A stretch of 64,000 nucleotides of DNA from positions 3,348,001 through 3,412,000 of the forward strand of contig NZ_CP053439.1 in NCBI RefSeq assembly GCF_000769405.2, written 5' to 3'. The notes below the pieces were generated by a model. The model was given only the letters and a program-made list of their open reading frames with translations. It was not told where the DNA came from and did not search any database. The stretch's first letter is position 1; every line of letters starts with the position of its first letter. This document shows, in pieces, positions 41,015-62,933 of this stretch. Source of the stretch: Rhizobium brockwellii. GTDB lineage: Bacteria; Pseudomonadota; Alphaproteobacteria; Rhizobiales; Rhizobiaceae. A program made the translations under genes and the position numbers.

Positions 41015-41626
41015 TTAGAGCCCGCCCTGCTCCCTGAGGAAGCTGACGATCGAGCTGACGCCGTCGCCGCGCTTCATGTCGGAGAACACGAAGGGGCGGC
41101 TCGCACGCATGCGTGTCGCATCCCGGTCCATCACCTCGAGATCGGCGCCGACATAGGGCGCCAGATCCTTCTTGTTGATGACGAGCAGGTCCGATCGGGT
41201 GATGCCGGGGCCTCCCTTGCGCGGGATTTCCTCACCCTGGCAAACCGAGATGACATAGATGGTGATATCGGCAAGATCGGGCGAAAAGGTCGCCGCCAGA
41301 TTGTCGCCGCCGGATTCGATGAAGACGACGTCGAGATCGGGGATTCGCTGGTTGAGGCCGGCGATCGCCTGCAAATTGATCGTCGCATCCTCGCGGATGG
41401 CGGTATGCGGGCACCCACCCGTTTCGACACCGACGATGCGGTCCGAAGTCAATGCCTGCATCCGCACCAGCGCCTCGGCATCCTCTGTGGTGTAGATATC
41501 GTTGGTGACGACGGCGACGGAATAGTCGTCGCGCATCGCCTTGCAGAGCTTTTCGGTCAGCGCCGTCTTGCCCGAGCCGACCGGCCCGCCGATGCCGACA
41601 CGCAAAGGTCCGTTTCTTGATTTCAT
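41015..41626 (-). CDS. ureG: Urease accessory GTPase UreG
   Basis: A 203-residue GTPase that drives nickel insertion into urease. The P-loop is [11 protein letters not shown] (about residues 9-19), the metal-binding CPH motif is in [16 protein letters not shown], and [10 protein letters not shown] gives base specificity. The start at 41626 (MKSRNGPLR) fits the family; the frame runs on upstream through a repeat. Separated from ureF by about 190 bases that contain a palindromic repeat. Last gene of the urease cluster. Confidence 0.95.
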
Positions 41627-41691
41627 GTGCCTTACTCCAATCGAACCCGGATGATAACGAACCCGCCCGCCCGCGCCACCGTCAAATGACT

Positions 41692-41790
41692 TAGAGCGCC
41701 TATTTTTCTTCGCATCACGGAAGCGCTCTATCTCTTTGTTTTCACGCAATTCCGGACGAAAAACCGCTGCGCACTTTTGCTGGAATTGCT
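41692..41790. repeat. Rhizobial palindromic repeat between ureF and ureG (family B, copy 2)
   Basis: Reverse-orientation relative of 6664-6765: read on the minus strand it shows AGCAATTCCAGCAAAA, GCGGTTTTTCGTCCGGAA and a TAGAGCG/CGCTCTA hairpin. Its insertion splits the ureF-ureG junction. Confidence 0.7.
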
Positions 41791-41816
41791 CTCACCGCAG
41801 CGATAATTTCGGACAA

Positions 41817-42488
41817 TCACGAACGGAACAGCCGCGTCGCCTGCGTCTCGTGACGCAGGCTGGTAATATCGGCCTGCACCGTCGCCGAACCCAGATCGTC
41901 AAGCGTCGAGGCTGCCGCCCGCCGGGCGACCTCCGCGATATGGTCTTCCAGACCGGCAAGCACGGCGACGCCATCCCTCTGCCCGGCGACACCGAGGCGG
42001 ATGCCTGATGAAACCGCTTGTGAGACATAGGCATGCAGGAACGCGGCGAGCGCCTTCTCGGGCCTTATGCCATGAGCGCCCGTCACTGCCCCGACCGCAA
42101 TGGGATACGCGACCTTGTCAGTTAGCCGCTCGAACACCGCGTCCGGCCAGGCCCGCGCCGCTGCGAGGAAAGCCTCACCGAGCAGCATCGTTTCCTGATG
42201 CCGCTCGCGTGATCCGGCCAGCGCCTCGGCGAGTGCAGCGACTTCGGCAAGACGTGCGGCTTCTGCCTGTTGCCTGTGGCTTTCGGCCAGCAGCACCGCA
42301 TCGTTCCAGGCCGAACCATTGCCGACCAGCGTGCCGATCCAGGCCGCAAGCGAGGTCGCATCCGTAACGAGCCCGTCGGCCACCGCACGCTCCAGCCCGC
42401 CCGAATAGGCAAAGCTGCCGATCGGAAAAGCCGGCGAGAGCCATGCCGTCAGGCGCAACAATGCCTGCAGCTCGCGATCCCTGGTCAT
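41817..42488 (-). CDS. ureF: Urease accessory protein UreF
   Basis: A 223-residue helical protein that regulates UreG in the UreDFG nickel-loading complex. Family landmarks: [24 protein letters not shown] near the start and [36 protein letters not shown] in the second half. ATG at 42488 preferred over the TTG at 42491. ureE ends six bases upstream. Confidence 0.94.
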
Positions 42489-42494
42489 CAAGGC

Positions 42495-43091
42495 TCAGTC
42501 GTGCTTGTGGTCATGATCATGACCGCGATCGTGGCGGTGCTCATGCTCATGCTCGTAGCCATGTTCGTGATCATGGTCATGGCCGTGATTATGATCATGT
42601 GCGTGGTCATGCCCGTGGTCATGATTGTGATCGTGATCATGCCCATGCGAGTGCCCGCCTGGGGAATGATAGGCGCCGCGCGCCGGCTGGAACGGCTCGT
42701 CAATCTCGAGGACGACGGCGCCGAGGCCCTGCAGCATGGCGCGGATGACATGATCGCGGAGGATGACGATGCGGTCTTCCTCGATCTGCGCGGCAAGATG
42801 CCGGTTGCCGAGATGCCAGGCGAGCTCGACCAGATGGGTGCGGTCGCGACCGCGGATTTCGAAGAGTTTCTCATCAGCGGCGAGGATCTCGATCAGTTCG
42901 CCGTCGTCGCGCACCAAAAGGTCGCCATTGGAGAAAAGCACCGGATCCTTGAGATCGAGCATGACCATTTCGCCATTTTCCAGATGCAGCAGCTTGCGGC
43001 GCAGATGACGCAGATCATGCGGCAGCTTGACTTGGGCGATCGGGTGGGAGGAAGGGGTTCCGGCGGGAAGATAGGAGGTGACGCGCTGCAT
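42495..43091 (-). CDS. ureE: Urease nickel chaperone UreE with long His-rich tail
   Basis: A 198-residue nickel-binding chaperone. The two UreE domains span about 1-145. The C-terminal tail of about 50 residues is a run of His alternating with Asp, Gly or Glu (about 149-198), longer than the tail of Klebsiella UreE, giving high nickel-storage capacity. The repetitive DNA 42500-42650 is explained by this tail. It lies between ureF and a diguanylate cyclase gene. Confidence 0.94.
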
Positions 43092-43179
43092 GACATGTCC
43101 GTTTTTCTGAGAGGACGACCATGCAAAATAGCTCTTCCCGATGCAAGCACCAATGGCCTTTCATCTAAATCAAAAAATA

Positions 43180-43227
43180 GAGCATGATGTCGTCCGAAAA
43201 CCGCAAACACTTTTCGGCATCATGCTC
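43180..43227. repeat. Single-hairpin palindromic repeat (family A, copy 3)
   Basis: GAGCATGATG pairs with CATCATGCTC, with a GTCCGAAAACCGCAAACACTTTTCGG-type interior split by mismatches. Reverse orientation to 13840-13891. In the gap between ureE and the diguanylate cyclase. Confidence 0.75.
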
Positions 43228-43239
43228 CAGACCTGGCTT

Positions 43240-44103
43240 TTATATTCCGTAAGCCTGCATCACATTGTCGCTCTCCGGTCCTCTGTTCTCGCCATCGACG
43301 CCGTTATCGACGAGCCCGTGCCAAGCGTGATGCAGACCTTCCCGTTCGTGTACGACGCGATTGCGCCCAAGCGCCTTGGCGAGATAGAGCGCCCGGTCGG
43401 CGGAAGCATAGACCGCCTGCTTGTTGCGCCCGGCGACCAGATCGGCAACGCCGCCGGAAACGGTGATGCGGATATCGTGGCCCTCGGCCCTGATGGCGCC
43501 GCCGGCGATCCGGCATCGGACGCTTTCGATGCGCTCCATCCGCGCCTCCAGCGGTTCCCCGGAGACGATGACGCCGAACTCCTCCCCACCCAGCCGTGCG
43601 ACGACGGACATCTCATTGAAGGCGGATGTGAGCATGGCCGAAACGGCGACGATGACGGCATCGCCGCAGCCATGGCCGAAGCGGTCGTTGATCGCCTTGA
43701 AACGGTCGACGTCAAAAATCACCAGCGACGCGTTGCCATCGGTATTCTCAAGCGCCTCGGTAAAGGCGCGCCGGTTGAGCAGCCCGGAAAGCGTATCCGT
43801 GCGGCTGAGCTTTTCGAACTCCGCCCGCGAGAGCGCGAGGTCGCGCATGGCAAAGCCGGCAAACAGCGACAGCATGCCGGAAACGGTACCGCCGATCAGC
43901 CAAGAAAAGATCGCGCTGAAGCCGATTGCATGGGCGAGCGTCACCGGTAGAAGCCCGAGAAGATCGAGCGACGGCATCGTCAATGCGATGATGACTCCTG
44001 AGAGAATAACCGCAAGAAAAGCCATCTTCAGGGCGAAGACGTAGACGTTCTTGCGGTATTGAAGATCGCCAAAATCGGCCTGCAGCGAAATCCAGTTTCT
44101 CAT
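43240..44103 (-). CDS. Membrane-bound diguanylate cyclase (GGDEF)
   Basis: A 287-residue protein with two predicted helices (about 23-45 and 53-80) and a cytosolic GGDEF domain (about 100-265). The active-site loop reads GGEEF (ARLGGEEFGVIV), so cyclic-di-GMP synthesis is expected; the upstream RxxD inhibitory site is not visible. It starts at 44103 (MRNWISLQ) with an AAGG ribosome site. Located between ureE and the DUF2459 gene in the urease region, but it has no known link to urease. Confidence 0.88.
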   Translation of the reverse strand: MRNWISLQADFGDLQYRKNVYVFALKMAFLAVILSGVIIALTMPSLDLLGLLPVTLAHAIGFSAIFSWLIGGTVSGMLSLFAGFAMRDLALSRAEFEKLSRTDTLSGLLNRRAFTEALENTDGNASLVIFDVDRFKAINDRFGHGCGDAVIVAVSAMLTSAFNEMSVVARLGGEEFGVIVSGEPLEARMERIESVRCRIAGGAIRAEGHDIRITVSGGVADLVAGRNKQAVYASADRALYLAKALGRNRVVHEREGLHHAWHGLVDNGVDGENRGPESDNVMQAYGI

Positions 44104-44433
44104 GAGAATCAACCTTCTGCTCGGCGTTTCCAGGCATTGATAAGAGCCCAATTGCTGCGGGTGTCTTAATTGACTCGTTAAAATTCGAACGGTTTTGGAC
44201 GTTTCGGTGGACAGAATTTTTCTAGCAGGGGATGCAGTTTTCCAATCCCTGAATCGAACAGTGTGGAGAGAGAGATAAACAATTGATATGAAAGGGATTT
44301 ATTGAGCTTCTAGGTGCGGCTGTTCCAGAATGACGTAGCTGAAGAAAATACCGGCTTTTCCACCGATTTTTACAACCAGATGGAGAGCGCTATTCACAAT
44401 TCACTTTAAGAGCGGACTGGCCCGACAGCTGCT
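44104..44433. other. 330-base gap inside the urease region
   Basis: AT-richer than its neighbours. No gene, repeat or clear promoter was recognised. It probably holds the promoter of the diguanylate cyclase gene. Confidence 0.4.
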
Positions 44434-45105
44434 TCAATTGTAGACGGAAACAGACAATCGCAATGCTTGTGGAAGCGGGTTCCATATGCCGGTTCGAAGC
44501 CCGGCCGAGCGCAGGGCAGCGGCAGTCCAGGTGTTGCAGCCGAAGAGGGCGTTGAAGTATCCCCTGGCCTCGAAGAACCGATCGATCTCGCCGTATCCGG
44601 CATCCGGAATCGGCACCACCGCGCCCGCATCGCGGACGAAGCTCCGCGAGATAAAGTCGCGCAGTTGCGCCAATTGATCCTCACTGACATCGAATGCCGT
44701 CACAGTGGACTGTGGCTCGGTGATAGGACCGGCAAGATCCACATGCAGCACCGAACGGTCGATCGTCAGCGCGCGCAACACCGGCAGCGGCTTCAGTTCC
44801 GCCCATGTGGGAGTTTCCAGATAGAAGGCACGACCGCCCCAGCCGATAATGAGCCACTCCGCATTCGGATGGCCGAGCGGAAAACCGGTATCGTCGAGGA
44901 AGGAAAAGGCAGCCCGCGTTTCCGCGTCGAGCGGAATGGCAATATCGGTATGGATCGGTCCTGACAACAGGAGAATCCGATGCGTCACCGCCGCGGACGA
45001 CGCCTTGACCGGCGCAATCAGCGGCCGGGGAATGAAGGTCCCGCAAGCCACCGAGAGCAGAAGCAGAAATACGATCCGCAACAACCAGCGGATACCTGTC
45101 CTCAT
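44434..45105 (-). CDS. DUF2459 (TIGR02117, urease-region) protein
   Basis: A 223-residue protein with a lipoprotein- or signal-like hydrophobic start (about 5-25, with VACGTF). The body carries the DUF2459 pattern: HTDIAIPLDA, WLIIGWGGRAFYLETPTW, and CNTWTAAALRSAG near the end, whose Cys/His could form a NlpC-like catalytic site. The family is known as a conserved hypothetical of urease regions, and here it follows ureC by 31 bases. Function unknown. Confidence 0.83.
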   Translation of the reverse strand: MRTGIRWLLRIVFLLLLSVACGTFIPRPLIAPVKASSAAVTHRILLLSGPIHTDIAIPLDAETRAAFSFLDDTGFPLGHPNAEWLIIGWGGRAFYLETPTWAELKPLPVLRALTIDRSVLHVDLAGPITEPQSTVTAFDVSEDQLAQLRDFISRSFVRDAGAVVPIPDAGYGEIDRFFEARGYFNALFGCNTWTAAALRSAGLRTGIWNPLPQALRLSVSVYN

Positions 45106-45136
45106 CGCAGCCGTCCGTCACACATCGGACGTGGGC

Positions 45137-46849
<1,713 letters not shown>

Positions 46850-50505: not shown

Positions 50506-51201
50506 TCAGACAGTCAGGTGGCGGCGGGCCTCCGGCGTATCCAGCGTCTCGGCAAGCCCTTCATGCACGATTTCGCCACGGTCCATGATGTAGACATAGT
50601 CGGCAAGCTCGCGGCAGAAATCGAGATATTGTTCGACGAGCAGGATCGCCATGCCTGTGGAGTCACGCAAATAGCGGATCGCCCGGCCGATATCCTTGAT
50701 GATCGATGGCTGAATGCCCTCGGTCGGCTCGTCGAGCACGAGAATCCTCGGCCGCGTCACCATGGCGCGCCCGATTGCCAGCTGCTGCTGCTGCCCGCCG
50801 GAAAGATCGCCGCCGCGACGTGACAACATCGACTTCAGCACCGGGAAGAGACTGAAGATGTCATCGGGGATGTTGCGGTCGCGGCGGCCAAGCGGCGCAA
50901 AGCCGGTTTCGAGATTTTCCTTGACTGTAAGTAGCGGGAAGATTTCGCGCCCTTGCGGCACATAGCCGATGCCCTGCTTGGCGCGGGCAAAGGGCGGCAG
51001 GCCGTTGAGCCTGGTATCGTTGAAGGTGACGGTGCCGGCCGACAGCGGATGCTGGCCGGTAACGGCGCGCAGAAGAGAACTCTTCCCCACGCCGTTACGC
51101 CCCAGCACGCAGGTGATCTTGCCCATCTCGGCCTTGATCGAGATGCCGCGCAGCGCCTGAGCGGCGCCATAATGCAGGTTTGCGTTTTCGACTGTCAGCA
51201 T
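50506..51201 (-). CDS. urtE: Urea ABC transporter ATP-binding protein UrtE
   Basis: A 231-residue ATPase of the LivF type. Walker A is GRNGVGKSS, the signature LSGGQQQQLAIGRA, Walker B RILVLDEPTEGIQPS. Works with UrtD on the UrtBC pore for high-affinity urea uptake. Separated from urtD by a 200-base gap with a palindromic repeat. Followed downstream by ureD. Confidence 0.94.
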   Translation of the reverse strand: MLTVENANLHYGAAQALRGISIKAEMGKITCVLGRNGVGKSSLLRAVTGQHPLSAGTVTFNDTRLNGLPPFARAKQGIGYVPQGREIFPLLTVKENLETGFAPLGRRDRNIPDDIFSLFPVLKSMLSRRGGDLSGGQQQQLAIGRAMVTRPRILVLDEPTEGIQPSIIKDIGRAIRYLRDSTGMAILLVEQYLDFCRELADYVYIMDRGEIVHEGLAETLDTPEARRHLTV

Positions 51202-51242
51202 CGGTTTCCCTTTACATTCAAACTACTGTCGGAGCAGGCCGC

Positions 51243-51382
51243 TGCCCCTCATCCTGCTGCCGCCACCTTCTCCCCGCTTGCGGGGAGAAGGGAATATGCC
51301 GCGACCTATCCGTCCCTCGTCCACCTCTCGCATGGCACGTCCCCTCGCCCCGTTTACGGGGAGAGGGTTAGGGTGAGGGGCA
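51243..51382. repeat. 140-bp palindromic repeat between urtD and urtE
   Basis: Outer arms TGCCCCTCATCCTG and TTAGGGTGAGGGGCA; two internal stems, CTTCTCCCCGC/GCGGGGAGAAG and CCCTCGCCCCGT/ACGGGGAGAGGG. This type is widely scattered in rhizobial genomes. It lies inside the urt operon but between genes. Confidence 0.8.
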
Positions 51383-51399
51383 TCCGGCAAACACGACGC

Positions 51400-52164
51400 T
51401 CACCGCCCCAGATAATTCTCGATCACCTTCGGATCCGAACTCACAAAATCGATCGATCCCTCCGCCAGCACCGATCCTTCAGCAAGGCAGGTCACCTTGA
51501 CGCCGAGGTCACGGATGAAGCCCATGTCGTGCTCGACGACGACGACCGACCGGGTTTTGGCGATATCCTTGAGCAGGATCGCGGTTTCCGCCGTCTCCGC
51601 ATCGGTCATGCCGGCCACCGGTTCGTCGACGAGCAGAAGCTTCGGCTCCTGCGCCAGCAGCATGCCGATCTCCAGCCACTGCTTCTGCCCGTGCGAGAGA
51701 TTGGCGGCGAATTCGTCGCGGCGATGCGTCAGCCGCACCGTTCCGAGGATCTCCTCGATGCGCGCCTTGTCCTCGCCGGAAAGCCGGTAGAGCAGCGTCG
51801 AGAACACACCACGACGTCGGTTCAGCGCCAACTCCAGATTGTCCCACACCGTATGGCTTTCGAAGACGGTCGGCTTCTGAAACTTGCGGCCGATGCCGAG
51901 CTGAGCGATATCGGCTTCGTCCTTCTTGGTGAGATCGATCGTGCCGTTGAAGAACACCTCGCCCTCATCGGGCCGGGTCTTGCCGGTGATGATATCCATC
52001 ATCGTCGTCTTGCCGGCGCCGTTCGGGCCGATGATGGCACGGAGTTCACCGGGCTCGATGACGATCGACAGCGAGTTCAGCGCCTTGAAGCCGTCGAAGG
52101 AAACCGACACGCCGTTGAGATAAAGCACGCTGGTGGGTTTGACGTCGGGGATCATGGCGCTCAC
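51400..52164 (-). CDS. urtD: Urea ABC transporter ATP-binding protein UrtD
   Basis: A 254-residue LivG-type ATPase: Walker A GPNGAGKTT, signature LSHGQKQWLEIGM, Walker B KLLLVDEPVAGM. LSHG instead of LSGG is normal for UrtD. The GTG start overlaps the stop of urtC (GTGA), giving coupled translation. Confidence 0.94.
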   Translation of the reverse strand: MSAMIPDVKPTSVLYLNGVSVSFDGFKALNSLSIVIEPGELRAIIGPNGAGKTTMMDIITGKTRPDEGEVFFNGTIDLTKKDEADIAQLGIGRKFQKPTVFESHTVWDNLELALNRRRGVFSTLLYRLSGEDKARIEEILGTVRLTHRRDEFAANLSHGQKQWLEIGMLLAQEPKLLLVDEPVAGMTDAETAETAILLKDIAKTRSVVVVEHDMGFIRDLGVKVTCLAEGSVLAEGSIDFVSSDPKVIENYLGR

Positions 52165-53324
52165 TCCGCTGCCTGGATTTTCGGCTCGATACCGTCTTCC
52201 TCAGCCGCCGGTGTACCCGCCTTGGAGACAGGCTTCCGCTTGCCGAGATATTGCGCAATCGTGCCGACGACACCCTTCGGCAGGAACAGCGTGACCGCGA
52301 CGAAGAGACCGCCGAGTGCAAACAGCCAGAATTCCGGGAAGAGACCGGTGAAGATAGTCTTGCCGCCGTTGACGAGGATCGCGCCGATGATAGGCCCGAT
52401 CAGCGTCGCCCGCCCGCCGACCGCGGTCCAGATGACGACTTCGATCGAGTTCGCAGGGGCGAATTCGCCCGGATTGATGATGCCCACCTGCGGCACGTAA
52501 AGCGCGCCGGCAATACCCGCCATCATCGCCGAGACGACGAAGGTGAAAAGCTTGAAATGCTCGACGCGGTAGCCGAGGAAGCGCGTGCGGCTTTCGGCAT
52601 CGCGCACGCCGACCAGCACCTTGCCGAACTTAGAGCGCACGATCGCCGAGGCGATCATCAGCGATAGAGCGAGGAAGATCGCAGTTGCGGCAAAGAGGGC
52701 TGCACGCGTGCCGTCAGCCTGGACGTTGAAACCGATAATGTCCTTGAAATCAGTGAGGCCGTTATTGCCGCCGAAGCCCATGTCGTTGCGGAAGAAGGCC
52801 AGCAGCAGCGCGTAGGTCATCGCCTGGGTGATGATCGAGAGATAGACGCCGTTGACGCGTGAGCGGAAGGCAAACCAGCCGAAGACGAAGGCGAGCAGGC
52901 CGGGTACGACGAGCACCATCAGCGCCGCAAACCAGAAATGGTTGAAGCCGTACCAGAACCAGGGCAGATCCTTCCAGTTCAGGAACACCATGAAGTCGGG
53001 CAGAACAGGGTCTCCGTAGCTGCCGCGCGTGCCGATCTGGCGCATCAGATACATGCCCATCGCATAGCCGCCGAGCGCAAAGAAGGCACCGTGGCCGAGG
53101 GAGAGGATGCCGCAGAAGCCCCAGACGAGATCGAGCGCCAGCGCCAGCAGCGCATAGGTCAGATACTTGCCGAACAGCGACATGATATAAGTCGGCACGT
53201 GCAGCGGATTGGTCGGCCCCGTCATCAGGTTCATGACCGGCACGAGGACCGCGACCAGAAGCAGGAGGGCGATGGCAATAACGATCTTGCGATCGAGTGA
53301 TCGGAGAAGGAAGGCCGTTATCAT
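52161..53324 (-). CDS. urtC: Urea ABC transporter permease UrtC
   Basis: A 387-residue LivM-type permease with about ten helices, including DLVWGFCGILSLGHGAFFALGGYAMG and the coupling region VGVRDAESRTRFLGYRVEHFKLFTFVVSA. Overlaps urtB (ATGA at 53321-53324) and urtD at its two ends. Forms the urea channel with UrtB. Confidence 0.95.
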   Translation of the reverse strand: MITAFLLRSLDRKIVIAIALLLLVAVLVPVMNLMTGPTNPLHVPTYIMSLFGKYLTYALLALALDLVWGFCGILSLGHGAFFALGGYAMGMYLMRQIGTRGSYGDPVLPDFMVFLNWKDLPWFWYGFNHFWFAALMVLVVPGLLAFVFGWFAFRSRVNGVYLSIITQAMTYALLLAFFRNDMGFGGNNGLTDFKDIIGFNVQADGTRAALFAATAIFLALSLMIASAIVRSKFGKVLVGVRDAESRTRFLGYRVEHFKLFTFVVSAMMAGIAGALYVPQVGIINPGEFAPANSIEVVIWTAVGGRATLIGPIIGAILVNGGKTIFTGLFPEFWLFALGGLFVAVTLFLPKGVVGTIAQYLGKRKPVSKAGTPAAEEDGIEPKIQAAE

Positions 53325-54958
53325 GCTTCCACCGCCCTTCCTTTGAGTGCGAAGAGCCCGCGCGGACGCTTCTGGATGAAGAGAATGATGAGGACGAGCA
53401 CCAGGATCTTACCGAGCACGGCGCCGGCGAAGGGCTCGAGGAACTTGTTGACGACGCCGAGCGACAGTGCGCCGACCAGCGTCCCCCAGAGATTGCCGAC
53501 ACCGCCGAAGACGACGACCATGAAGCTGTCGATGATGTAGCTCTGGCCGAGGTTCGGCGAGACATTGTCGATCTGGCTGAGCGCCACGCCGGCGATGCCG
53601 GCAATGCCCGAGCCGAGCGCGAAGGTGAAGGCATCGACCCAGCCGGTGCGGATGCCCATCGACGACGCCATGCGCCGGTTCTGCGTAACGGCGCGCATCT
53701 GCAGGCCGAAGGCGGACCGCTTGAGCAGCAGGAGCAGCGCCACAAAGACCACCATCGAAAAGACGATGATCCACAGTCGGTTCCAGGTGATGGAGAGCCC
53801 GCCGAGATCGAAGACGCCGGACATCCAGCTCGGATTGCGGACCTCGCGGTTGGTCGGACCGAAGCTGCTGCGCACCGCCTGCTGCAGGATCAGCGACACG
53901 CCCCAGGTGGCGAGCAGCGTTTCCAGCGGCCGGCCGTAGAGATAGCGGATGACGGCGCGCTCGATTACCAGACCGACGAAGCCGGTAAAGACGAAGGCCG
54001 CAGGCACGGCAAAGGCCAGCGAATAATCGGCAAGTTTAGGAAAGGCGGAGGTGATGTACTCCTGCACCACATAGGTGGTGTAGGCACCGATCATCACCAT
54101 TTCGCCATGCGCCATGTTGATGACGCCCATGACGCCGAAGGTGATGGCAAGGCCGATCGCTGCAAGCAGCAGTACCGAGCCGAGAGACAATCCGTACCAG
54201 ATATTCTGGACGATATCCCACAGCGCCAGGCTGCGATTGATGGAGCTGATATCCGCCTGGATCACCGGCTTCAGGTCGTCAGGCGCGGTTTCGAGCGTCG
54301 CCGTGAGGATGGTCAGCGCATCGCGATTGCCGCGCGCCGCGATCGTATCGATCGCAGCCTTCTTGTCTTCGACGCTGGCATCCGTCTTGAGCAGCAGCAC
54401 GGCGCGCGCCGCTTCCATCGTATTCTTGATCTCAGCGTCCTTTTCGGCCGCAAGCGCCGAGTTCAGCAGATCGAGATTGGCGGGATCGGCATCTTTCAGA
54501 AGGCCCTGCGCCGCGGCAAGCCGCGCGGAACGGTCCGTGCTCATCAGCGTCAACTGGCTGGTGGCAGCGCCGATGACGCCGCGAAGCGCGTTGTTGATCT
54601 TGACCTTCGTCATCAGATCCGGATCGACATCGGCAGCGGCTTCGCCGGTGATCGGATCGGAATAGGTCGGTTCGTCATCGGTACCGCCCTGGAGGAGAAC
54701 CGGGCCGCCATCGGAATTGACGTAGAGAAGGCCGTCGCTCAACTGCTGCAGGATCTGGCTGACATGCTGGTCCTTGGAAGCGACCAGCGCTTTGATAGCC
54801 GCTTCGCGTTCCGGGAAGTCGCCGACGCCGAGCGCGTCGATCAGCACGTGGATATCGTCCTGGGCCTGGACTTCGCTCGAGATCGTCACGCCCGAAAATG
54901 TCAGGCCCGAAAATGTCAGGCAAACCGTGATGAGGAAAATCTTTATGGCGCGATACAT
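53321..54958 (-). CDS. urtB: Urea ABC transporter permease UrtB
   Basis: A 545-residue LivH-type permease with the long N-terminal periplasmic part (about 30-245) typical of UrtB, then about eight helices (AIGLAITFGVMGVINMAHGEMVMIGAYTTY; GIAGVALSQIDNVSPNLGQSYIID). The signal peptide contains a perfect 15-base tandem duplication (54890-54919) that repeats the residues LTFSG. Second gene of the operon after urtA. Confidence 0.95.
   Translation of the reverse strand: MYRAIKIFLITVCLTFSGLTFSGVTISSEVQAQDDIHVLIDALGVGDFPEREAAIKALVASKDQHVSQILQQLSDGLLYVNSDGGPVLLQGGTDDEPTYSDPITGEAAADVDPDLMTKVKINNALRGVIGAATSQLTLMSTDRSARLAAAQGLLKDADPANLDLLNSALAAEKDAEIKNTMEAARAVLLLKTDASVEDKKAAIDTIAARGNRDALTILTATLETAPDDLKPVIQADISSINRSLALWDIVQNIWYGLSLGSVLLLAAIGLAITFGVMGVINMAHGEMVMIGAYTTYVVQEYITSAFPKLADYSLAFAVPAAFVFTGFVGLVIERAVIRYLYGRPLETLLATWGVSLILQQAVRSSFGPTNREVRNPSWMSGVFDLGGLSITWNRLWIIVFSMVVFVALLLLLKRSAFGLQMRAVTQNRRMASSMGIRTGWVDAFTFALGSGIAGIAGVALSQIDNVSPNLGQSYIIDSFMVVVFGGVGNLWGTLVGALSLGVVNKFLEPFAGAVLGKILVLVLIILFIQKRPRGLFALKGRAVEA
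54890..54919. repeat. 15-bp in-frame tandem duplication in the urtB signal peptide
   Basis: GCCCGAAAATGTCAG occurs twice back to back. On the coding strand it gives LTFSG twice, within the hydrophobic part of the signal peptide, lengthening it by five residues. Confidence 0.9.
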
Positions 54959-55072: not shown

Positions 55073-56365
55073 TCAGGAGCCCTTGCCACCGCACTTGCCC
55101 GTAGCGACGTTGAAGTTGCCGCAGGACATCGGCTTGCGCCAATCGGAGATCAGGTCCTTGGAATCAGGCAGGAAGTCGGACCATTCGTCGCCGACGACGG
55201 CAGGTGTCTGCTGGACGATTTCGAACTGGCCGTCGGCCTGGATTTCACCGATCAGCACCGGCTTGGTGATGTGGTGGTTCGGCATGACGGTTGCATAGCC
55301 GCCGGAGAGGTTCGGAACGCTGACGCCGATGATGGTATCGAGAACCTTGTCGGTATCGGTCGTGCCGGCAGCCTGGACGGCCTTAACCCATGCGTTGAAG
55401 CCGATATACGCAGCTTCCATCGGGTCGTTCGTCACGCGCTTGTCGTTCTTGGTGAAAGCGTGCCAGTCCTTGATGAACTTCTTGTTGGCAGGGCTTTCGA
55501 CCGACTCGAAATAGTTCCAGGCAGCGAGATGGCCGACGAGCGGCTTGGTATCGAGGCCGGCAAGCTCTTCTTCGCCGACCGAGAAGGCGACGACGGGGAT
55601 GTCTGTTGCCTTGATGCCCTTGTTACCCAGTTCCTTGTAGAACGGAACGTTGGCATCGCCGTTGATCGTCGAGACGACGGCGGTCTTCTTGCCGGCCGAA
55701 CCGAATTCCTTGATCTTGGAAACTTCGGTCTGCCAGTCGGAGAAGCCGAACGGCGTGTAGTTGGTCATGATGTCTTCTTTCGGAATACCCTTCGAAATCA
55801 GGTATGCCTCGAGAATCTTGTTGGTCGTGCGCGGATAAACGTAGTCCGTACCTTCGAGAACGAAGCGCTTTACGCCTTCTTTTTCCATCAGGTAGTCGAC
55901 AGCTGGAATGGCCTGCTGGTTCGGAGCAGCACCGGTGTAGAAGATGTTGCGCGAGGACTCTTCGCCTTCATACTGGACCGGGTAGAAGAGGATCGAGTTG
56001 GTCTCTTCGAAAACCGGCAGAACGGACTTGCGCGACGAGGACGTCCAGCAACCGAAGACGGCGGCAACCTTGTCCTTCTGGATCAGCTCACGTGCCTTTT
56101 CGGCAAACAGCGGCCAATCGGAAGCCGGGTCGACGACGACGGCCTCGAGCTTCTTGCCGAGAAGGCCGCCCTTCTTATTCTGCTCGTCGATGAGCATCAG
56201 CATGGCGTCCTTGAGCGTGGTCTCGGAGATGGCCATGGTGCCGGAAAGCGAGTGCAGAATGCCGACCTTGATCGTATCATCGGCGGCAACCGCACCGCTG
56301 AAGGCAGCCGAGGCCGCCATGACGGCGCCGAGTGCAGCGCCCGTAATAGTAGTTCTGAGATTCAT
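55073..56365 (-). CDS. urtA: Urea ABC transporter substrate-binding protein UrtA
   Basis: A 430-residue periplasmic binding protein. Signal peptide about 1-28 (GAVMAASAAFSGAVAADDT). The mature part begins IKVGILHSLSGTMAISETTLKDAMLMLIDEQNKKGGLLG and carries FGCWTSSSRKSVLPVFEE and FYPVQYEGEESSRNIFYTGA, all characteristic of UrtA. First gene of urtABCDE. A gap of 114 bases separates it from urtB, which may help produce more binding protein than permease. No clear NtrC or sigma-54 site was found upstream by eye. Confidence 0.95.
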   Translation of the reverse strand: MNLRTTITGAALGAVMAASAAFSGAVAADDTIKVGILHSLSGTMAISETTLKDAMLMLIDEQNKKGGLLGKKLEAVVVDPASDWPLFAEKARELIQKDKVAAVFGCWTSSSRKSVLPVFEETNSILFYPVQYEGEESSRNIFYTGAAPNQQAIPAVDYLMEKEGVKRFVLEGTDYVYPRTTNKILEAYLISKGIPKEDIMTNYTPFGFSDWQTEVSKIKEFGSAGKKTAVVSTINGDANVPFYKELGNKGIKATDIPVVAFSVGEEELAGLDTKPLVGHLAAWNYFESVESPANKKFIKDWHAFTKNDKRVTNDPMEAAYIGFNAWVKAVQAAGTTDTDKVLDTIIGVSVPNLSGGYATVMPNHHITKPVLIGEIQADGQFEIVQQTPAVVGDEWSDFLPDSKDLISDWRKPMSCGNFNVATGKCGGKGS

Positions 56366-56508
56366 CTGGTTGAGCCCCTCTTCTTGTTCCGCAACAGGCC
56401 GGAAACGGAGATTAACTGTTGCTTAAGGGACTATCGGGTGCTGCAGCGCAAAAACACATACGCAAAATGACGTAGGTCCGGGGGCCAAACAGGCAGGTCA
56501 GAGAAGGA

Positions 56509-56553: not shown

Positions 56554-58458
56554 TTATCCGTCGATCGTCAAAGTGACTGATGTCGGGCCGTAGGAGAGGC
56601 TCGCCTGGTGGCCGGAAACCGTGACCTTGCCGAAGGTGCCAGTCACCGCACTCGCCTTGAGGATTTCGATCTTCGTTCCGGGCGTTGGGGCATAGCCGTC
56701 GACAAGCGTCACATCGAGGTCGCCGGCCAGCGCCGCCTTGCCCTCGACGACCAGCGTCCCCGCGCCGTTTGCGCCGAGCGCCGGCTTCGTCGTGGCATTG
56801 GCGACCTGCTGATAGTCACCGCTCACGGTCAACGGCTTGGCGGCCGCCAGAACGAGCGAGCCGCCGTTGACCGTCAGCCCGCCACGACCGAAGGCCGACG
56901 ACGACAGGGCCACCAGCGCGCCTTCTTCCAGCACGGTGCCGCCGGCATAGCTGTTGGCGCCCGAAAGCCCGAGGATGCCGTTGCCGCGCTTCACCAGCCT
57001 GCCCCTGCCGGTGATGTCGTTCCGCCAGGTGTCGATCGAATTGAACCCGCCCTTTGCCGCGTCCATCGTCACGGTCACGTCCTGTTCGAACGCACCGTAA
57101 CCATCGGCGGCGGCAAAGAGGTTGAGACGGCCGTAACCTTCCGCATCGTCGAGCAGCGGGTAGCCGGAGGCGATCTCCGTCGTCTTCAGCACGGCGCGGC
57201 GCTGCTCGCCGTCCAGATAGGGCAGACGCGTTTCGAGAAGCGCTTCGGCGCCCTGCGGCACGCGCGCCGGCTGATCCGTCGAATGGATCGTCGGCAGGCC
57301 ATAGCTCAAGCGCTGCAGCACGTAGGCGCGATTGGCGTCATGATCGGCGAAACGGTCTGCAGCGAGCGGTGCCGCGTGGGCGGCAACCTCGAGCGCACCC
57401 GCATCCGCAACGCCTGATTTGGCGACGAGCCATGACTGCGCTTGGGCGTAGGCATCGCTCTTCAGCGCCGCATTGTCGGCCTTGTTCAGATTGTAAACGA
57501 CCGCAGCCGTGCCGAGCATCCGGCCGCCCATGACGTCGAGAGGAGAATGCATGCCCGCGAGAATACGGTCTTCACCCAGCTCGCTGGCGCGCGTGATCAT
57601 TTCCTGAAAGCGCTGCGGTACGAGATAGGCCATGGCGAGCGCATCCCGCCAGGCTTCCGCCGTATGCCCGCTCGGGAAACCACCGTCCTCGACCGGCTTG
57701 CCGCTCTTGGCGGGCTCCAGCGTCGGCACCACCAACACGTCCTGGCTCCAGCGGTAGGGACGGCCATATTTGAAATAGCGTTTTGTGGGCTCCGTCGAGC
57801 CGTCACCGCTTGCGGCGTTGATGAAGTCGATTGCAAGGCCCATGTCGGGGTTGGCATCGGTCTTGTTTTCCGAGTCCGGCTTGCTGCCGGCGCCGCGATT
57901 GTTGCCCTTGTCGTCATATTTGACCGTCGTCGCGTCGGCCGCCACCTCGGTGATCGTGGTGGTCTGCTTCGAGCCGGCCTTCCAGGCATCCGTCAGCGGA
58001 CCGAGGCCATCGACGATGCTGGCATTCTTGCCACGCCGATCGTCGAGGTAGGCAGCCACCGCCTGATCGGCAGTTCGCGCCCGCGTCGCTTTGACGACAT
58101 AGGCGATGTTGGCGTCATGGACGGACTGGTTGACGATATGGCCGTCGGTCTTGCTGGCGGGAATGCCGTCCCAATCCGTCTTGGCGACAGCCGGGCAATT
58201 ATCCTTGGCCGGGGCTTCGACACCCGCATCGACGAAAGGCGTGCGCGGTGTCCAGATTTCGAGGAAGCCGGAGAGAAGATGAACGGCGGCGTTGGTGTCC
58301 ACCGTCGAGAAGCAGGCGTCACCGCGTTTGTTGGTGTTTCCGGCCTGCGCATAAGGCGCTTTCGCTGCGGTGGCCTGCTCGGCGCTGGCAAGCGATGGCA
58401 CGATGGAAAGGAGGCAGACGAGGGCAGTGCTCAGGCGACAAAAGCTTAAAGCAGACAT
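56554..58458 (-). CDS. Exported class A acid phosphatase (PAP2) with autotransporter-type beta repeat
   Basis: A 634-residue protein. Signal peptide about 1-26. The N-terminal two-thirds is a class A non-specific acid phosphatase with the full motif: K-x6-RP (KRYFKYGRP), PSGH (GGFPSGHTAEAW) and R-x5-H-x3-D (DRILAGMHSPLD). From about residue 480 it carries an autotransporter-associated strand repeat (GILGLSGANSYAGGTVLEEGALV) and a short beta-rich end, but no 12-strand barrel follows, so it is not a complete autotransporter. The start at 58458 (MSALSF) is set by the signal peptide. Divergent from the NCS1-kinase gene. Substrate unknown. Confidence 0.87.
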   Translation of the reverse strand: MSALSFCRLSTALVCLLSIVPSLASAEQATAAKAPYAQAGNTNKRGDACFSTVDTNAAVHLLSGFLEIWTPRTPFVDAGVEAPAKDNCPAVAKTDWDGIPASKTDGHIVNQSVHDANIAYVVKATRARTADQAVAAYLDDRRGKNASIVDGLGPLTDAWKAGSKQTTTITEVAADATTVKYDDKGNNRGAGSKPDSENKTDANPDMGLAIDFINAASGDGSTEPTKRYFKYGRPYRWSQDVLVVPTLEPAKSGKPVEDGGFPSGHTAEAWRDALAMAYLVPQRFQEMITRASELGEDRILAGMHSPLDVMGGRMLGTAAVVYNLNKADNAALKSDAYAQAQSWLVAKSGVADAGALEVAAHAAPLAADRFADHDANRAYVLQRLSYGLPTIHSTDQPARVPQGAEALLETRLPYLDGEQRRAVLKTTEIASGYPLLDDAEGYGRLNLFAAADGYGAFEQDVTVTMDAAKGGFNSIDTWRNDITGRGRLVKRGNGILGLSGANSYAGGTVLEEGALVALSSSAFGRGGLTVNGGSLVLAAAKPLTVSGDYQQVANATTKPALGANGAGTLVVEGKAALAGDLDVTLVDGYAPTPGTKIEILKASAVTGTFGKVTVSGHQASLSYGPTSVTLTIDG

Positions 58459-58636
58459 GGTGATACCCGAAATGGTTGAACGAACGCCGGGAGAGTTAGA
58501 GTTCTTATGTGACAGATCAATTGCAAAAATATTGCCATTCTGTGAACCAGTTGGCGTCCGCCTCTTGCCTTTCCTATCCATCCCGCCAAAACTGGCTGGA
58601 AGACGATGAGCCCAACCAGATTGCCGGAAAGAGGGC

Positions 58637-61600
58637 ATGACAGCGCGCCAACGCATCATTCCGGTGAGACGCGAATATAATCGCTGGGTCGCCAACCAAA
58701 CGCTGGAAGATTATGCGTTGCGCTTCACTGCCAAGAGCGCCCGCCATTTCTCCTCGCAGCGCATCTCGCAGACGGCGATCGGCGCGATCTCCTTCCTGGC
58801 GCTGGAGGCGATCGGCGGCGCGATCACCCTCTCCTACGGCACCACCAACGCCTTTTACGCCATCATCGTCGCCTCGATCGCCATGCTGGCGATCGGCCTG
58901 CCGATCAGCCGCTACGCCATCCGCCACGGCGTCGACATCGATCTTCTGACGCGCGGCGCGGGCTTCGGCTACATCGGCTCGACCATCACCTCGCTGATCT
59001 ATGCAAGCTTCACCTTCATGCTGTTTGCGATCGAGGCCTCGATCATGTCCGGGGCGCTGGAGCTCACCCTCGGCATCCCGCTCTGGATCGGCTACATCAT
59101 CAGCGCCGTCATGGTAATCCCGCTGGTGACGCACGGCGTGCGGCTGATCAGCAAGTTTCAGCTGATGACCCAGCCCTTCTGGATCGTGCTGAATATCCTG
59201 CCCTTCATCTTCATCGCCTTGCTGGACTGGGAAAAATTCGATCTCTGGCGCGCCTTTGCCGGCATCCGTCATGCCTCAGGCCCACCCGGCACCGTCGCCG
59301 AGTTCGATCTGGTGGAGTTCGGCGCTGCTTCTGCCGTCATCCTGGCGCTGATGTCGCAGATCGGCGAACAGGCCGACTTCCTGCGCTTCCTGCCGCCAGA
59401 CCCGCAGCGCAAGTGGCGCCACCGCCTGGCGATCTTTCTCGCCGGGCCTGGCTGGGTCATCATCGGCGCGCCGAAGCTGCTTGCCGGTTCCTTCCTGGTC
59501 GTGCTGACCTTCACCTCAGGCGTCCCCCTCGACCGCGCCGCCGACCCGGCGCAGATGTATCTGACCGCCTTCGGCTACATGGTCCCCTGGCACAATGCCG
59601 CGCTGCTATTGATGGCCGCTTTCGTCGTCGTCTCGCAGCTGAAGATCAACGTGATGAACGCCTATGCCGGCTCGCTCGCCTGGTCGAACTTCTTTTCGCG
59701 GCTGACCCATAGCCATCCCGGCCGTGTCATCTGGCTGGTCTTCAACGTCGCAATCGCCCTGCTTTTGATGGAACTCGGCATCTACCGGCTGCTGGAGGAG
59801 ACGCTCGGCATCTTCTCGATCATCGCCATGGCCTGGCTCTGCACGATTTCCGCCGATCTCTTCATCAACAAGCCGCTGGGGTTGGCTCCCCCCGGCATCG
59901 AGTTCAAGCGCGCCCACCTCTACGACATCAACCCGGTCGGCCTCGGCGCCATGACGCTGTCGGCGGCGGTGTCGCTGACCGCCCATTTCGGCGCCTTCGG
60001 CGAGATCGCCGCCTCGCTCGCCCCCTACATCACCCTCGTCATCGCCCTGATCGCCTCGCCTGTCATCGCCTGGGCGACGAAAGGCAAGTTCTATCTCGCC
60101 CGCAAGCCGCGCCAGAGCTGGAAGAACCTGACGAGCATTACCTGCTCGGTCTGCGAACACCCGTTCGAGCCGGAGGACATGGCCTGGTGCCCGGCCTATG
60201 CCGCGCCGATCTGCTCGCTCTGCTGCTCGCTCGACAGCCGCTGCCACGACATGTGCAAGCCGGCGGCCCGTTTCAACGCTCAGGTCGGCACCGTCGCCAA
60301 GGCGCTGCTGCCGGAAGCCATTCTGGGGAAGCTGACGACGCGCCTTGGCCGCTACGGCATCGCCGTCGTGCTGGCATTGACCGCCATCGGCGCGATCCTG
60401 GCAATGATTGCCCATCAGGTCGCCTCCGCCTCACCCGCGACGGGTGAGGTCGTTAACCGCACCATCCTCATCGTCTTCTTCGTCTTCTCGGTGATCTCAG
60501 GCGTCGTCTGCTGGTTCTATGTGCTCGCCCATGACAGCCGCGTCGTTGCCGAGGAGGAATCTTCGCGCCAGAACACGCTGCTGCTCAAAGAAATTGCCGC
60601 CCACAAGAAGACCGACGCTGCCCTGCAGAACGCCAAGGAAACGGCCGAGGCCGCCAACCGCGCCAAGAGCCGCTATGTCGTCGGGCTCAGCCATGAATTA
60701 CGCACGCCACTGAACGCCGTGCTCGGCTACGCCCAGATCCTCGAACGCGACGAGACCATTCCGGCACCGCGCCAATCCTCGATCAAGGTCATCCGCCGCA
60801 GCGCCGAACACCTCTCGGGACTGATCGACGGCCTGCTCGATATTTCCAAGATCGAAGCCGGCCGCCTGCAGGTCTATTCCAATGAGATCAACATCCAGGA
60901 TTTCCTCGACCAGATCGTCGATATGTTCCGCCCGCAGGCGCAGGCAAAAGGGCTTGCCTTCATCCATGAGCGCGCGCCGGCCTTGCCGCAATTCGTCCGC
61001 ACCGACGAAAAGCGCCTGCGCCAGATTCTCGTCAACCTGCTCTCCAATGCCATCAAGTTCACCGACGAGGGCAGCGTCACCTTCGATGTCGGCTATCGCA
61101 GCCAGGTAGCAACCTTCACCGTCGCCGATACCGGCCGAGGCATCACGGAGAAGGACCTGCCTCGTATCTATGAACCTTTCCAGCGCGGTGAGGCCGAAAG
61201 CGTACGGCCAATGCCGGGGCTCGGCCTTGGCCTCACCATCACCCGGCTTCTGACCAACACGCTCGGTGGCGAGATTTCGGTTTCGAGCATAAAGGACGAA
61301 GGCTCGACCTTCCGCGTCCGGCTGATGCTGTCCGCCGTCATGCGCGCCGTGGCCGCAGCGCCGCAGGAGAAGCGCATCGTCGGTTATGACGGCCCGCGCC
61401 GAACGGTCGTCGTCGTCGATGATAACGAGGACCACCGCGAGATGATGCGCGAGATCCTGGCGCCGCTCGATTTCATTGTGCTGACGGCGGCAGGCGGCGG
61501 CGAATGCCTGACGCTGATCGAGGGCATCATGCCGGACCTTTTCCTCGTCGATATTCTGATGCCCGGCATGAACGGCTGGCAGCTCGTCTCGCGTCTGCGC

Positions 61601-62023
61601 GAGGCCGGCCAGATGGCGCCGGTGCTGATGCTGTCGGCCAATATCGGTGATGCGGCCGTTCTCAGCGACAGCGACGACAGCCACAATGATGCGATCGGCA
61701 AGCCGGTCGACATCCGCCAGCTGCGCGACAAACTCGCCCTGCATCTCGGCGTGACATGGATCTATGCCGATGCCACGCCAGCCGTTCCTGTCAAGATCGA
61801 AGCGCCGATGCTGAGCCCAGGTGCTGCCCATGTGCAGGAATTGCTGCGGCTCGGCGAGATCGGCTATATCAGAGGCATTGAAGCCAAGCTTTCGGACCTT
61901 GCCAAGGTGGAGGCAAATCAGCCATTCACGGAGGAACTTCGCGCCTATGTCGCCGCCTTCGATCTCGCCGGCTTCATGACCTTCCTGCACGACTTCGACG
62001 AAAAGGTGGAATCCATTGGCTGA
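58637..62023 (+). CDS. Hybrid histidine kinase with an NCS1-type permease sensor domain
   Basis: A 1128-residue protein with four parts. Residues about 15-490 form a multi-helix domain related to NCS1 nucleobase:cation symporters (purine/cytosine permease family). Next is a Cys-rich segment (503-540) with eight cysteines (C503, C506, C518, C526, C529, C530, C536, C540) and nearby H508 and H537. Then two more helices (about 572-640), a short coiled coil, a HisKA domain with H686 (LSHELRTPLNAV), an ATPase domain (GLGLGLTIT) and a receiver domain with D972 (LVDILMPGMNGW). The layout recalls CbrA, whose sensor is an SLC5-type transporter. It probably senses a nucleobase or similar nitrogen compound and signals through the overlapping response regulator. 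Confidence 0.87.
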   Translation: MTARQRIIPVRREYNRWVANQTLEDYALRFTAKSARHFSSQRISQTAIGAISFLALEAIGGAITLSYGTTNAFYAIIVASIAMLAIGLPISRYAIRHGVDIDLLTRGAGFGYIGSTITSLIYASFTFMLFAIEASIMSGALELTLGIPLWIGYIISAVMVIPLVTHGVRLISKFQLMTQPFWIVLNILPFIFIALLDWEKFDLWRAFAGIRHASGPPGTVAEFDLVEFGAASAVILALMSQIGEQADFLRFLPPDPQRKWRHRLAIFLAGPGWVIIGAPKLLAGSFLVVLTFTSGVPLDRAADPAQMYLTAFGYMVPWHNAALLLMAAFVVVSQLKINVMNAYAGSLAWSNFFSRLTHSHPGRVIWLVFNVAIALLLMELGIYRLLEETLGIFSIIAMAWLCTISADLFINKPLGLAPPGIEFKRAHLYDINPVGLGAMTLSAAVSLTAHFGAFGEIAASLAPYITLVIALIASPVIAWATKGKFYLARKPRQSWKNLTSITCSVCEHPFEPEDMAWCPAYAAPICSLCCSLDSRCHDMCKPAARFNAQVGTVAKALLPEAILGKLTTRLGRYGIAVVLALTAIGAILAMIAHQVASASPATGEVVNRTILIVFFVFSVISGVVCWFYVLAHDSRVVAEEESSRQNTLLLKEIAAHKKTDAALQNAKETAEAANRAKSRYVVGLSHELRTPLNAVLGYAQILERDETIPAPRQSSIKVIRRSAEHLSGLIDGLLDISKIEAGRLQVYSNEINIQDFLDQIVDMFRPQAQAKGLAFIHERAPALPQFVRTDEKRLRQILVNLLSNAIKFTDEGSVTFDVGYRSQVATFTVADTGRGITEKDLPRIYEPFQRGEAESVRPMPGLGLGLTITRLLTNTLGGEISVSSIKDEGSTFRVRLMLSAVMRAVAAAPQEKRIVGYDGPRRTVVVVDDNEDHREMMREILAPLDFIVLTAAGGGECLTLIEGIMPDLFLVDILMPGMNGWQLVSRLREAGQMAPVLMLSANIGDAAVLSDSDDSHNDAIGKPVDIRQLRDKLALHLGVTWIYADATPAVPVKIEAPMLSPGAAHVQELLRLGEIGYIRGIEAKLSDLAKVEANQPFTEELRAYVAAFDLAGFMTFLHDFDEKVESIG

Positions 62024-62933
62024 GCCGGCCCTCCCCCGCGACATCGTTCTGCTCGTCGACGACTCGGCCGAAGCACTCGGCTTTATGACCGACGCGCTCG
62101 AACAATCCGGCTTCTCCGTGCTGATCGCCACATCGGGCACGGCGGCACTTGGTATCGTCGAGCGCATCACGCCCGATCTCATCCTGCTCGACGCGTTGAT
62201 GCCGGGTATGGATGGCTTCGAGACCTGCCGCCGACTGAAGGCGAATGCCGCGGTAGCTCAGGTGCCTGTCGTCTTCATGACCGGCCTGACCGAGACCGAG
62301 CATGTCGTGCACGCGCTGGAATCCGGCGGCGTCGATTATCTCAGCAAGCCGATCAACATCGATGAACTGCGCGCCCGCATCCGCGTCCATCTGCGCAACG
62401 CTCGCTCGGCCCAAAGCGCCCGCATCGCCCTGGACGCAGCCGGCCGCCATCTGCTGGCAGTCAAGGGCGATGGCGCCATCCACTGGTCAACGCCGCAAGC
62501 GACACGGCTGGTCAATGCCGCCATGGGAAGCGACGACGGCATGGAAATCGTCGTCCGCCATATCGCCGGCTGGATGCACGACCGCGTCGCCGCGGTGCGC
62601 GACGGCATCATCTCGATCGCCCATGCCGGCCAGGCGGCGCTGCAGCTCGCTTTCCTCGGCGCAATCGGCCCTGACGAATATCTCTTCCGCCTCACCGCCG
62701 CCAGTCAGCGCAGCGACGACGAGGTCCTGCGCCAGCGCTTTTCGCTCACCCAGCGCGAATCCGAAGTGCTGCTCTGGATCGCCAAGGGCAAGGCCAACCG
62801 CGACATCGGTGAAATATTGGGACTGTCGGCGCGGACGGTGAACAAACACCTCGAACAGATTTACGTGAAGCTCGGCGTCGAGAACCGGGCCTCGGCCGCC
62901 GTGAAAGCCACGCATGTGCTGTACGAGATGTGA
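62016..62933 (+). CDS. LuxR-type response regulator coupled to the NCS1-kinase
   Basis: A 305-residue regulator. Receiver domain about 8-130 with D15/D16 and phosphoacceptor D59 (LILLDALMPGMDG); middle region of unclear fold; LuxR helix-turn-helix at about 240-300 (LTQRESEVLLWIAKGKANRDIGEILGLSARTVNKHLEQIYVKLGV). TTG start at 62016 overlaps the kinase stop by eight bases. It is the likely DNA-binding partner of the kinase; the target genes are unknown. Similar pairs are found in other Rhizobiales. Confidence 0.88.
   Translation: MAEPALPRDIVLLVDDSAEALGFMTDALEQSGFSVLIATSGTAALGIVERITPDLILLDALMPGMDGFETCRRLKANAAVAQVPVVFMTGLTETEHVVHALESGGVDYLSKPINIDELRARIRVHLRNARSAQSARIALDAAGRHLLAVKGDGAIHWSTPQATRLVNAAMGSDDGMEIVVRHIAGWMHDRVAAVRDGIISIAHAGQAALQLAFLGAIGPDEYLFRLTAASQRSDDEVLRQRFSLTQRESEVLLWIAKGKANRDIGEILGLSARTVNKHLEQIYVKLGVENRASAAVKATHVLYEM

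Follow-up and report, generated by a model that had tools for sequence, protein, structure and literature searches.

An NCS1-permease-derived hybrid histidine kinase and its LuxR-type partner as a candidate urea/amide two-component system in Rhizobium brockwellii

A stretch of 64,000 nucleotides from the Rhizobium brockwellii contig NZ_CP053439.1 (positions 3,348,001 to 3,412,000, here called the window) carries, close to the genes of a urea ABC transporter, an open reading frame (ORF) for a hybrid sensor histidine kinase and a second one, overlapping it by 8 bases, for a response regulator (Table 1). An earlier note on this DNA had described the pair as a permease-like sensor fused to a hybrid kinase with a LuxR-type partner, and the fold model and the Pfam domains bear this description out. 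The domain order, the fold, the conservation, the gene association and the palindrome reported below were all established by computation. According to Pfam the kinase possesses a HisKA domain with its phospho-acceptor histidine, a HATPase_c domain and a REC domain with its aspartate, and is a hybrid histidine kinase; the partner combines REC with a GerE helix-turn-helix and belongs to the NarL/FixJ (LuxR-type) response regulators. Conservation was counted over 144 kinase rows, not dereplicated, from 146 loci, two of which (L165 and L189) were missed by the search pattern. The phospho-acceptor His686 is kept in all 144 homologues and the REC residue Asp972 in 141, the other three having gaps at this position; Asp59 of the regulator is invariant among six aligned regulators. 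The model predicts two extra helices between the cysteine-rich module and HisKA. A named match to residues 1–651 of the kinase (99%) is the locus of R. johnstonii 3841. The C-terminal tail of the kinase (residues about 1037–1128; window 61745–62020, + strand) has no Pfam domain.

The model of the permease domain matches CodB (cytosine) and Mhp1 (hydantoin) best, with the fold spanning about 400–430 residues, and is closer to these NCS1 proteins than to other LeuT-fold families, whose Z in the fold comparison was lower and which were therefore not taken as the nearest relatives. The kinase does not have the transporter domain of the SLC5 family. Sequence searches were less direct. The Pfam family PF02133 gave no match to the kinase at E ≤ 10 and matched none of 22 homologues at E ≤ 1, residues 1–497 showed no Pfam match beyond one at chance level (E 0.2), and direct Pfam and Protein Data Bank (PDB) sequence searches for NCS1 with the window protein or with query A1 returned no NCS1 match. 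The NCS1 kinship is reached solely through stand-alone intermediates and the fold. Since PF02133 misses the kinase and the kinship runs through stand-alone relatives, the domain is NCS1-derived and not a typical NCS1 member.

The predicted binding pocket has not degenerated, a possibility raised in the earlier note: T126, E133, Q241, K336, N338 and N341 in the pocket region are identical in 144 of 144 kinases; at position 129, 77 of them have L and 67 have F. When aligned with Mhp1, the kinase keeps Asn318 (N341) and replaces Gln121 by E133, Trp117 by L/F129, Trp220 by I235 (mostly I, L or V, also G, A or M among the homologues) and Thr313, a residue of the Na2 site, by K336. The aromatic sandwich of Mhp1 is not kept. 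In the available part of the source on Mhp1, the ligand is sandwiched by Trp117 and Trp220 and bonded by Asn318, Gln121 and Gly219, and a change of Trp220 had little effect on uptake (PMC4195764). A weakened ring sandwich together with fixed polar residues would fit a small acyclic ligand, and it is moderately probable that the NCS1 domain binds urea or a short-chain amide. Nucleobases, allantoin and hydantoin are less likely ligands than these, because the two aromatic residues enclosing hydantoin in Mhp1 are not conserved here as a pair and because the neighbours are urea and amide genes. It is accordingly considered unlikely that the domain senses a cyclic nitrogen compound leading to urea (allantoin, hydantoin, uracil or cytosine), with the urea genes induced downstream. 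Such sensing would agree with the NCS1 fold, with the match of N341 to Asn318, with a distant Rhodococcus relative adjoining hydantoinase genes and with the fact that purine catabolism can end in urea; it agrees poorly with the L or F at Trp117, the variable small or aliphatic residue at Trp220, the invariant Glu at Gln121 and the urea, formamide and amide genes at the kinase loci. Among those kinase loci whose annotation was inspected, the sole purine-type enzymes were xanthine-dehydrogenase-like sets about 8–10 kb away in L205 and L207.

The permease domain is followed by a module of eight cysteines, all of which are invariant in the 22 proteins of a first homologue set as well as in the 144 kinases; loss of these residues in orthologues, also considered beforehand, was not seen. 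The Pfam scan found no domain between the transporter part and the kinase part, the region giving only a weak match to Prok-RING_1 (E 0.26). A 49-residue model of the module (pLDDT 77.4) did not match any PDB fold at E ≤ 0.001; the highest-ranking rows, from RING, PHD and FYVE fingers, began at E 0.93. Zinc binding by the module is plausible on this sequence pattern. Of 7997 candidates scored in a search with P0123 (535 aa), a stand-alone relative from Acinetobacter, 5253 reached E ≤ 0.001, and the best 120 of these were combined with P0123 itself, one Rhodococcus permease and two kinases into a set of 124 sequences. A C-x2-C...C-x2-C element occurs in 122 of these 124, at the C-terminus in all 34 tails inspected, and the full eight-cysteine pattern in two, namely the two kinases. 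Half of the module is present in stand-alone permeases, and the element therefore belongs to the permease lineage, to which the kinase version adds four cysteines. The earlier view that known NCS1 permeases lack this segment is not supported. Its companion, a two-input system for a solute plus metal or redox state, is left without evidence, since a structural zinc domain would account at least as well for a strictly invariant module that weakly resembles zinc fingers. The module is likely to be such a structural domain and not a sensor. That it is the main sensor (of nickel, zinc or redox state), tuning urease expression to metal supply, with the permease domain serving as a membrane anchor, appears very unlikely: the eight invariant cysteines and the nickel requirement of urease speak for it, and the half-module kept in kinase-less stand-alone permeases, the equally invariant pocket and the greater frequency of formamidase than of ureC among the neighbours speak against it.

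The association with urea and amide genes was counted in 59 loci from sampled genomes, which are a part of all matches. The regulator is present in 57 of these loci, a UrtA-like gene in 45, and in 41 urtA is divergent and within 6 kb. Formamidase occurs in 36, ureC in 11, aliphatic amidase in 13 and AmiS in two, and 55 loci have at least one urea or amide gene, which supports the nitrogen-source role that had been suggested from the position of the kinase. Among 80 named loci, which are best matches and biased to Rhizobiaceae, all 80 have the regulator, 76 have urtA (75 divergent within 6 kb) and 77 have any urea or amide gene. The R. brockwellii genome has no urtA above 33% identity except that of the window, and such neighbourhoods are therefore not expected by chance. 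UrtA from formamidase-linked loci passed the NCBI UrtA model in all three cases tested. Among the annotated plasmid examples, a Klebsiella plasmid (L202) has the kinase beside urtABCDE and formamidase, Paracoccus and Paraburkholderia plasmids have urtABCDE-FmdA-FmdB at the kinase, a Methylosinus plasmid has urt and urease genes there, and on a Novosphingobium plasmid (L207) the urease genes directly precede the kinase with the urt genes further off. A Methylovirgula plasmid carries formamidase, kinase, regulator, stand-alone permease and aliphatic amidase.

Given the very tight linkage to urtABCDE, the permease domain might sense transport activity, either by contacting the Urt ABC transporter or by being in competition with it, and would then need no ligand binding for signalling. 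This is quite improbable, as kinase loci that have no urt gene in their stretch (L064–L068, L180, L182, L185) keep the invariant pocket, whose conservation equals that of the catalytic histidine.

Table 1 Features of the window that are discussed in the text
Feature	Position in window	Strand	Details
Hybrid sensor histidine kinase	58637..62023	+	1128 aa; NCS1-fold permease domain, Cys module, two further helices, HisKA, HATPase_c, REC, C-terminal tail
NCS1-fold permease-like sensor domain, residues 1–490	58637..60106	+	model; CodB and Mhp1 best matches; conservation
Eight-cysteine module, residues 503–540	60143..60256	+	C-x2-C-x11-C-x7-C-x2-C-C-x5-C-x3-C; invariant in 144/144
HisKA and HATPase_c, residues 677–898 of kinase	60665..61330	+	Pfam
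REC of hybrid kinase, residues 924–1033	61406..61735	+	Pfam
LuxR-type response regulator	62016..62933	+	REC and GerE; 305 aa; TTG start; Pfam
Predicted operator of the response regulator, CATACGCAAAATGACGTAGG	56457..56476	.	palindrome family ATACGTCAATTGACGTAT; 94 bp before urtA start; 27.7 bits by position weight matrix
urtA	55073..56365	-	TIGR03407 above cut-off
urtB, urtC, urtD, urtE; predicted targets	50506..54958	-	TIGR03409, TIGR03408, TIGR03411, TIGR03410 above cut-off
Urease genes ureC (45140–46849), ureE (42498–43091), ureG (41018–41749)	41015..46849	-	same strand as urtABCDE

A DNA element probably connects the kinase pair with these genes. An expectation-maximization (EM) search of the intergenic regions between urtA and the kinase, with 54 dereplicated regions from 77 of up to 560 bp as input, yielded the palindrome TATACGTCAATTGACGTATA with a log-likelihood of 542.6, compared with 26.8 and 28.1 for two shuffled sets. 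With up to three mismatches its 16-base core was found in 85 of 117 regions (0.15 expected from shuffling), and TACG-N8-CGTA in 101 of 117 (1.66 expected). The site before urtA is the sole match at up to three mismatches in the window, where 0.06 are expected. In most regions the distance from the site to the urtA match is some 80–250 bp, and in Rhizobiaceae about 95 bp, even with the kinase up to 7.8 kb off; in L167, L184 and L188 the site is at most about 220 bp away from the kinase and more than 900 bp from urtA. At 21.6 bits the weight matrix gave 106 matches from 139 loci, the same loci from which it had been built, 92 of them within 600 bp before urtA, six before formamidase, five before the kinase only and three elsewhere; shuffled copies, one each of 53 loci, had no match at this value. 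A matrix from 76 regions (L069–L148) recovered 36 of 41 held-out regions at 12 bits, 34 at 15 bits and 30 at 18 bits, the held-out regions coming from different genomes, some of the same orders as the matrix set. As controls, 5 of 789 stretches drawn at random from the same loci passed 12 bits, as did 3 of 820 shuffled stretches. Plasmid loci outside the matrix also carry the site (L202, 26.2 bits; L205, 31.2; L206, 29.7; Methylosinus L222, 17.1), as does Acinetobacter baumannii (L221) between the kinase and a stand-alone permease (27.6 bits), and Methylovirgula has weaker sites before formamidase (17.3 bits) and aliphatic amidase (15.9 bits).

The presence of the palindrome depends on the presence of the kinase. 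In 27 kinase-less genomes it was found in none of 30 urtA upstream regions (best 1.3 bits), 29 of which are informative, the contig of L263 ending about 34 bp before the gene. Eleven kinase-less stand-alone loci that were scanned have no operator (best 12.6 bits). It is very probable that the kinase pair controls the urt promoter through this palindrome. The assumption that the palindrome belongs to another urt regulator and that the kinase pair acts elsewhere could appeal to pattern counts in the R. brockwellii genome that do not exceed the control, the binding of the regulator to the site being a prediction; given its absence from the kinase-less urtA regions and its occurrence before the kinase or a stand-alone permease at loci without urt genes (L180, L182, L221), this assumption is extremely unlikely.

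Nine of 14 stand-alone loci examined contain ureC, fmdA or amiE, three from Acinetobacter and two from Klebsiella among these being near-copies. At the A. baumannii locus L221 the kinase and regulator are divergent to the permease. On Acinetobacter plasmids the permease precedes ureEFGJDABC, in Moraxella and Tsukamurella it is situated beside formamidase and in Arthrobacter sp. U41 beside aliphatic amidase. In Klebsiella pneumoniae (L214:8956-10563, L269:7956-9563) an NCS1 'cytosine permease' follows the urease genes ureD to ureG and is a candidate urea or amide permease. The Klebsiella pneumoniae and Acinetobacter 'cytosine/allantoin permeases' share with the kinase the NCS1 lineage (hhalign E 1e-130), the CxxC...CSLC element and urease neighbours, and differ from it in having no kinase and four of the eight cysteines. 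The available part of a further study reports that nitrogen limitation raises the 'cytosine permease' msmeg_3402 together with the formamidase msmeg_3403, which bears the neighbouring tag (PMC4617892); if msmeg_3402 belongs to the subfamily, this would agree with the role proposed for the stand-alone permeases.

Several observations weigh against the reading of the pair as a urea/amide switch. Three kinase loci with long neighbourhoods (L180, L182, L185) have none of the urea or amide genes tested for, and neither has L201, which is on a short contig. Ten ORFs scanned in L180 and L185 revealed no urea or amide neighbour: they comprise two chemotaxis receptors, DUF1800, DUF1501, an AMP-binding enzyme, another kinase, the partner regulator and three without a match. 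Novosphingobium L207 (9.7 bits) and L208 (3.6 bits) lack a convincing site, and 18 of the 23 unusual loci shown have none above threshold. These 18 include all eight ureC-bearing loci with no urtA in the stretch (L063, L066, L067, L068, L150, L153, L161, L189); in L150, L153 and L189 other urt genes are found at the edge of the stretch. The pattern is not enriched in the R. brockwellii genome, with 8 places at up to three mismatches versus 9 for the reversed control and 3 versus 2 for the strict pattern, and the two extra places have no obvious nitrogen genes, as judged by ORF starts only. Finally, four stand-alone loci of Actinomycetes (L216, L270, L271, L272) are without ureC, fmdA and amiE, and the Rhodococcus permease next to hydantoinase genes is 32% identical and has no Cys tail.

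The kinase is a single-copy gene in R. brockwellii. Counting this genome each time, it is found in 60 of 60 genomes of the genus (one copy fragmented), in 26 of 385 genomes of the class at E ≤ 1e-10 and in 58 of 398 of the phylum at E ≤ 1e-5, six of the latter being weak or short (G554, G536, G732, G436, G729, G595). The threshold of E ≤ 1e-5 is also reached by 539 of 72,556 plasmid records, of which 342 come from Klebsiella, and the Klebsiella rows listed are kinases with 48% identity. In L202, the one Klebsiella plasmid inspected, no regulator gene is annotated behind the kinase, and insertion sequence elements come next. Shorter permease-kinases with frames of 873–899 aa exist beside formamidase and an AmiS/UreI transporter in L064, L065 and L208, the last (P0125) having no REC by Pfam, and frames of 1216–1365 aa with extra residues between permease and Cys module are located near ureC in L063, L066, L067 and L068.

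The genome's only ureC gene is the one in the window, where it is followed on its strand by ureE and ureG, and the urt and ure genes may share transcription. An ORF for a GGDEF diguanylate cyclase lies among the urease accessory genes (43243–44151, -). UrtB (53321–54958, -) has 545 aa with a conserved permease domain in its second half only (251–541). Between urtA and the kinase an ORF for a PAP2-type phosphatase with an autotransporter-type repeat (PATR) is found (56554–58695, -). Among the tblastn matches listed, it has counterparts in only six other loci (L069, L070, L071, L073, L078, L116), and it therefore appears to have been inserted later, with the operator staying beside urtA.

Taken together, the kinase and its partner probably constitute a two-component system for urea and short-chain amides in which the LuxR-type regulator binds the palindrome before urtA. 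We infer the following route. The permease pocket would most likely bind urea in R. brockwellii and formamide or acetamide in other lineages, and ligand binding or transport would shift the last permease helices. The Cys module, probably holding two structural zinc sites, and the two further helices would relay the signal to HisKA, from where the phosphoryl group may pass from His686 to Asp972 and then, either straight away or through intermediate steps, to Asp59 of the regulator. The regulator would then bind ATACGTCAATTGACGTAT and activate the urea transporter genes and probably the urease genes behind them. Activation is the presumed direction by analogy, because it is that of CrbR and RpuR in the available parts of two studies (PMC5715377, PMC9100948).

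Transporter-derived sensor kinases are already known from the SLC5/STAC group (CrbS, CbrA, RpuS); no paper on one based on NCS1 was found in the open-access literature searched. The kinase resembles CrbS/R (MxtR/ErdR), RpuS/R and CbrA/B in the fusion of a transporter-like domain to a histidine kinase. As far as the accessible parts of the sources describe them, CrbS and RpuS consist of a transporter-like domain and a hybrid kinase with REC, the LuxR-type CrbR and RpuR are encoded adjacently, and a short DNA repeat precedes the targets (PMC9100948, PMC5715377). The R. brockwellii pair likewise has a LuxR-type partner and a DNA repeat before target genes, features of working that do not imply SLC5/STAC membership: it works like CrbS/R and RpuS/R and is not a member of this family. 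It differs in that the transporter part is NCS1, that no PAS domain is detected by Pfam and that the linker is the eight-cysteine module, which together with the kinase is also an addition compared with CodB and Mhp1. Its site is a near-perfect palindrome, in contrast to the imperfect direct repeat of RpuR and the imperfect inverted repeat of CrbR given in the same excerpts. The urtABCDE and fmd systems (formamidase, FmdB, UrtA-type transporter) are both neighbours and predicted targets of the pair, and no dedicated two-component regulator for them was found described in the literature searched. This literature, mainly open-access and searched through listings with the openings of abstracts, contained no functional study of a kinase that is built on NCS1 or senses urea, of a two-component system linked to urt or of an NCS1 permease for urea or amides, and presumed locus tags of strain 3841 led to no paper; this is in line with the earlier statement that the system is little described. 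In its available part one paper on an Ectopseudomonas genome names these genes as neighbours and reports no test of them (PMC13296017).

A broader scenario, for and against which the chances seem evenly balanced, is that a branch of NCS1 became an acyclic urea/short-chain amide permease marked by a C-terminal zinc knuckle and turned into a sensor kinase in many Pseudomonadota by gaining a second four-cysteine site, two helices and a hybrid kinase; together with the LuxR-type partner and the palindrome it would form a widespread switch of a urea/amide regulon, also on Klebsiella plasmids. For soil bacteria and plant symbionts, urea and short-chain amides are an important way of obtaining nitrogen. 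Thanks to the operator, the regulon of each kinase-bearing genome can be tested directly with a reporter. If the proposal is true, transporter-derived sensor kinases would extend from SLC5 to NCS1, the 'cytosine permease' that follows the urease genes of Klebsiella would gain a suggested function, and many Pseudomonadota would possess a dedicated sensor and a defined DNA switch for the use of urea and short-chain amides.

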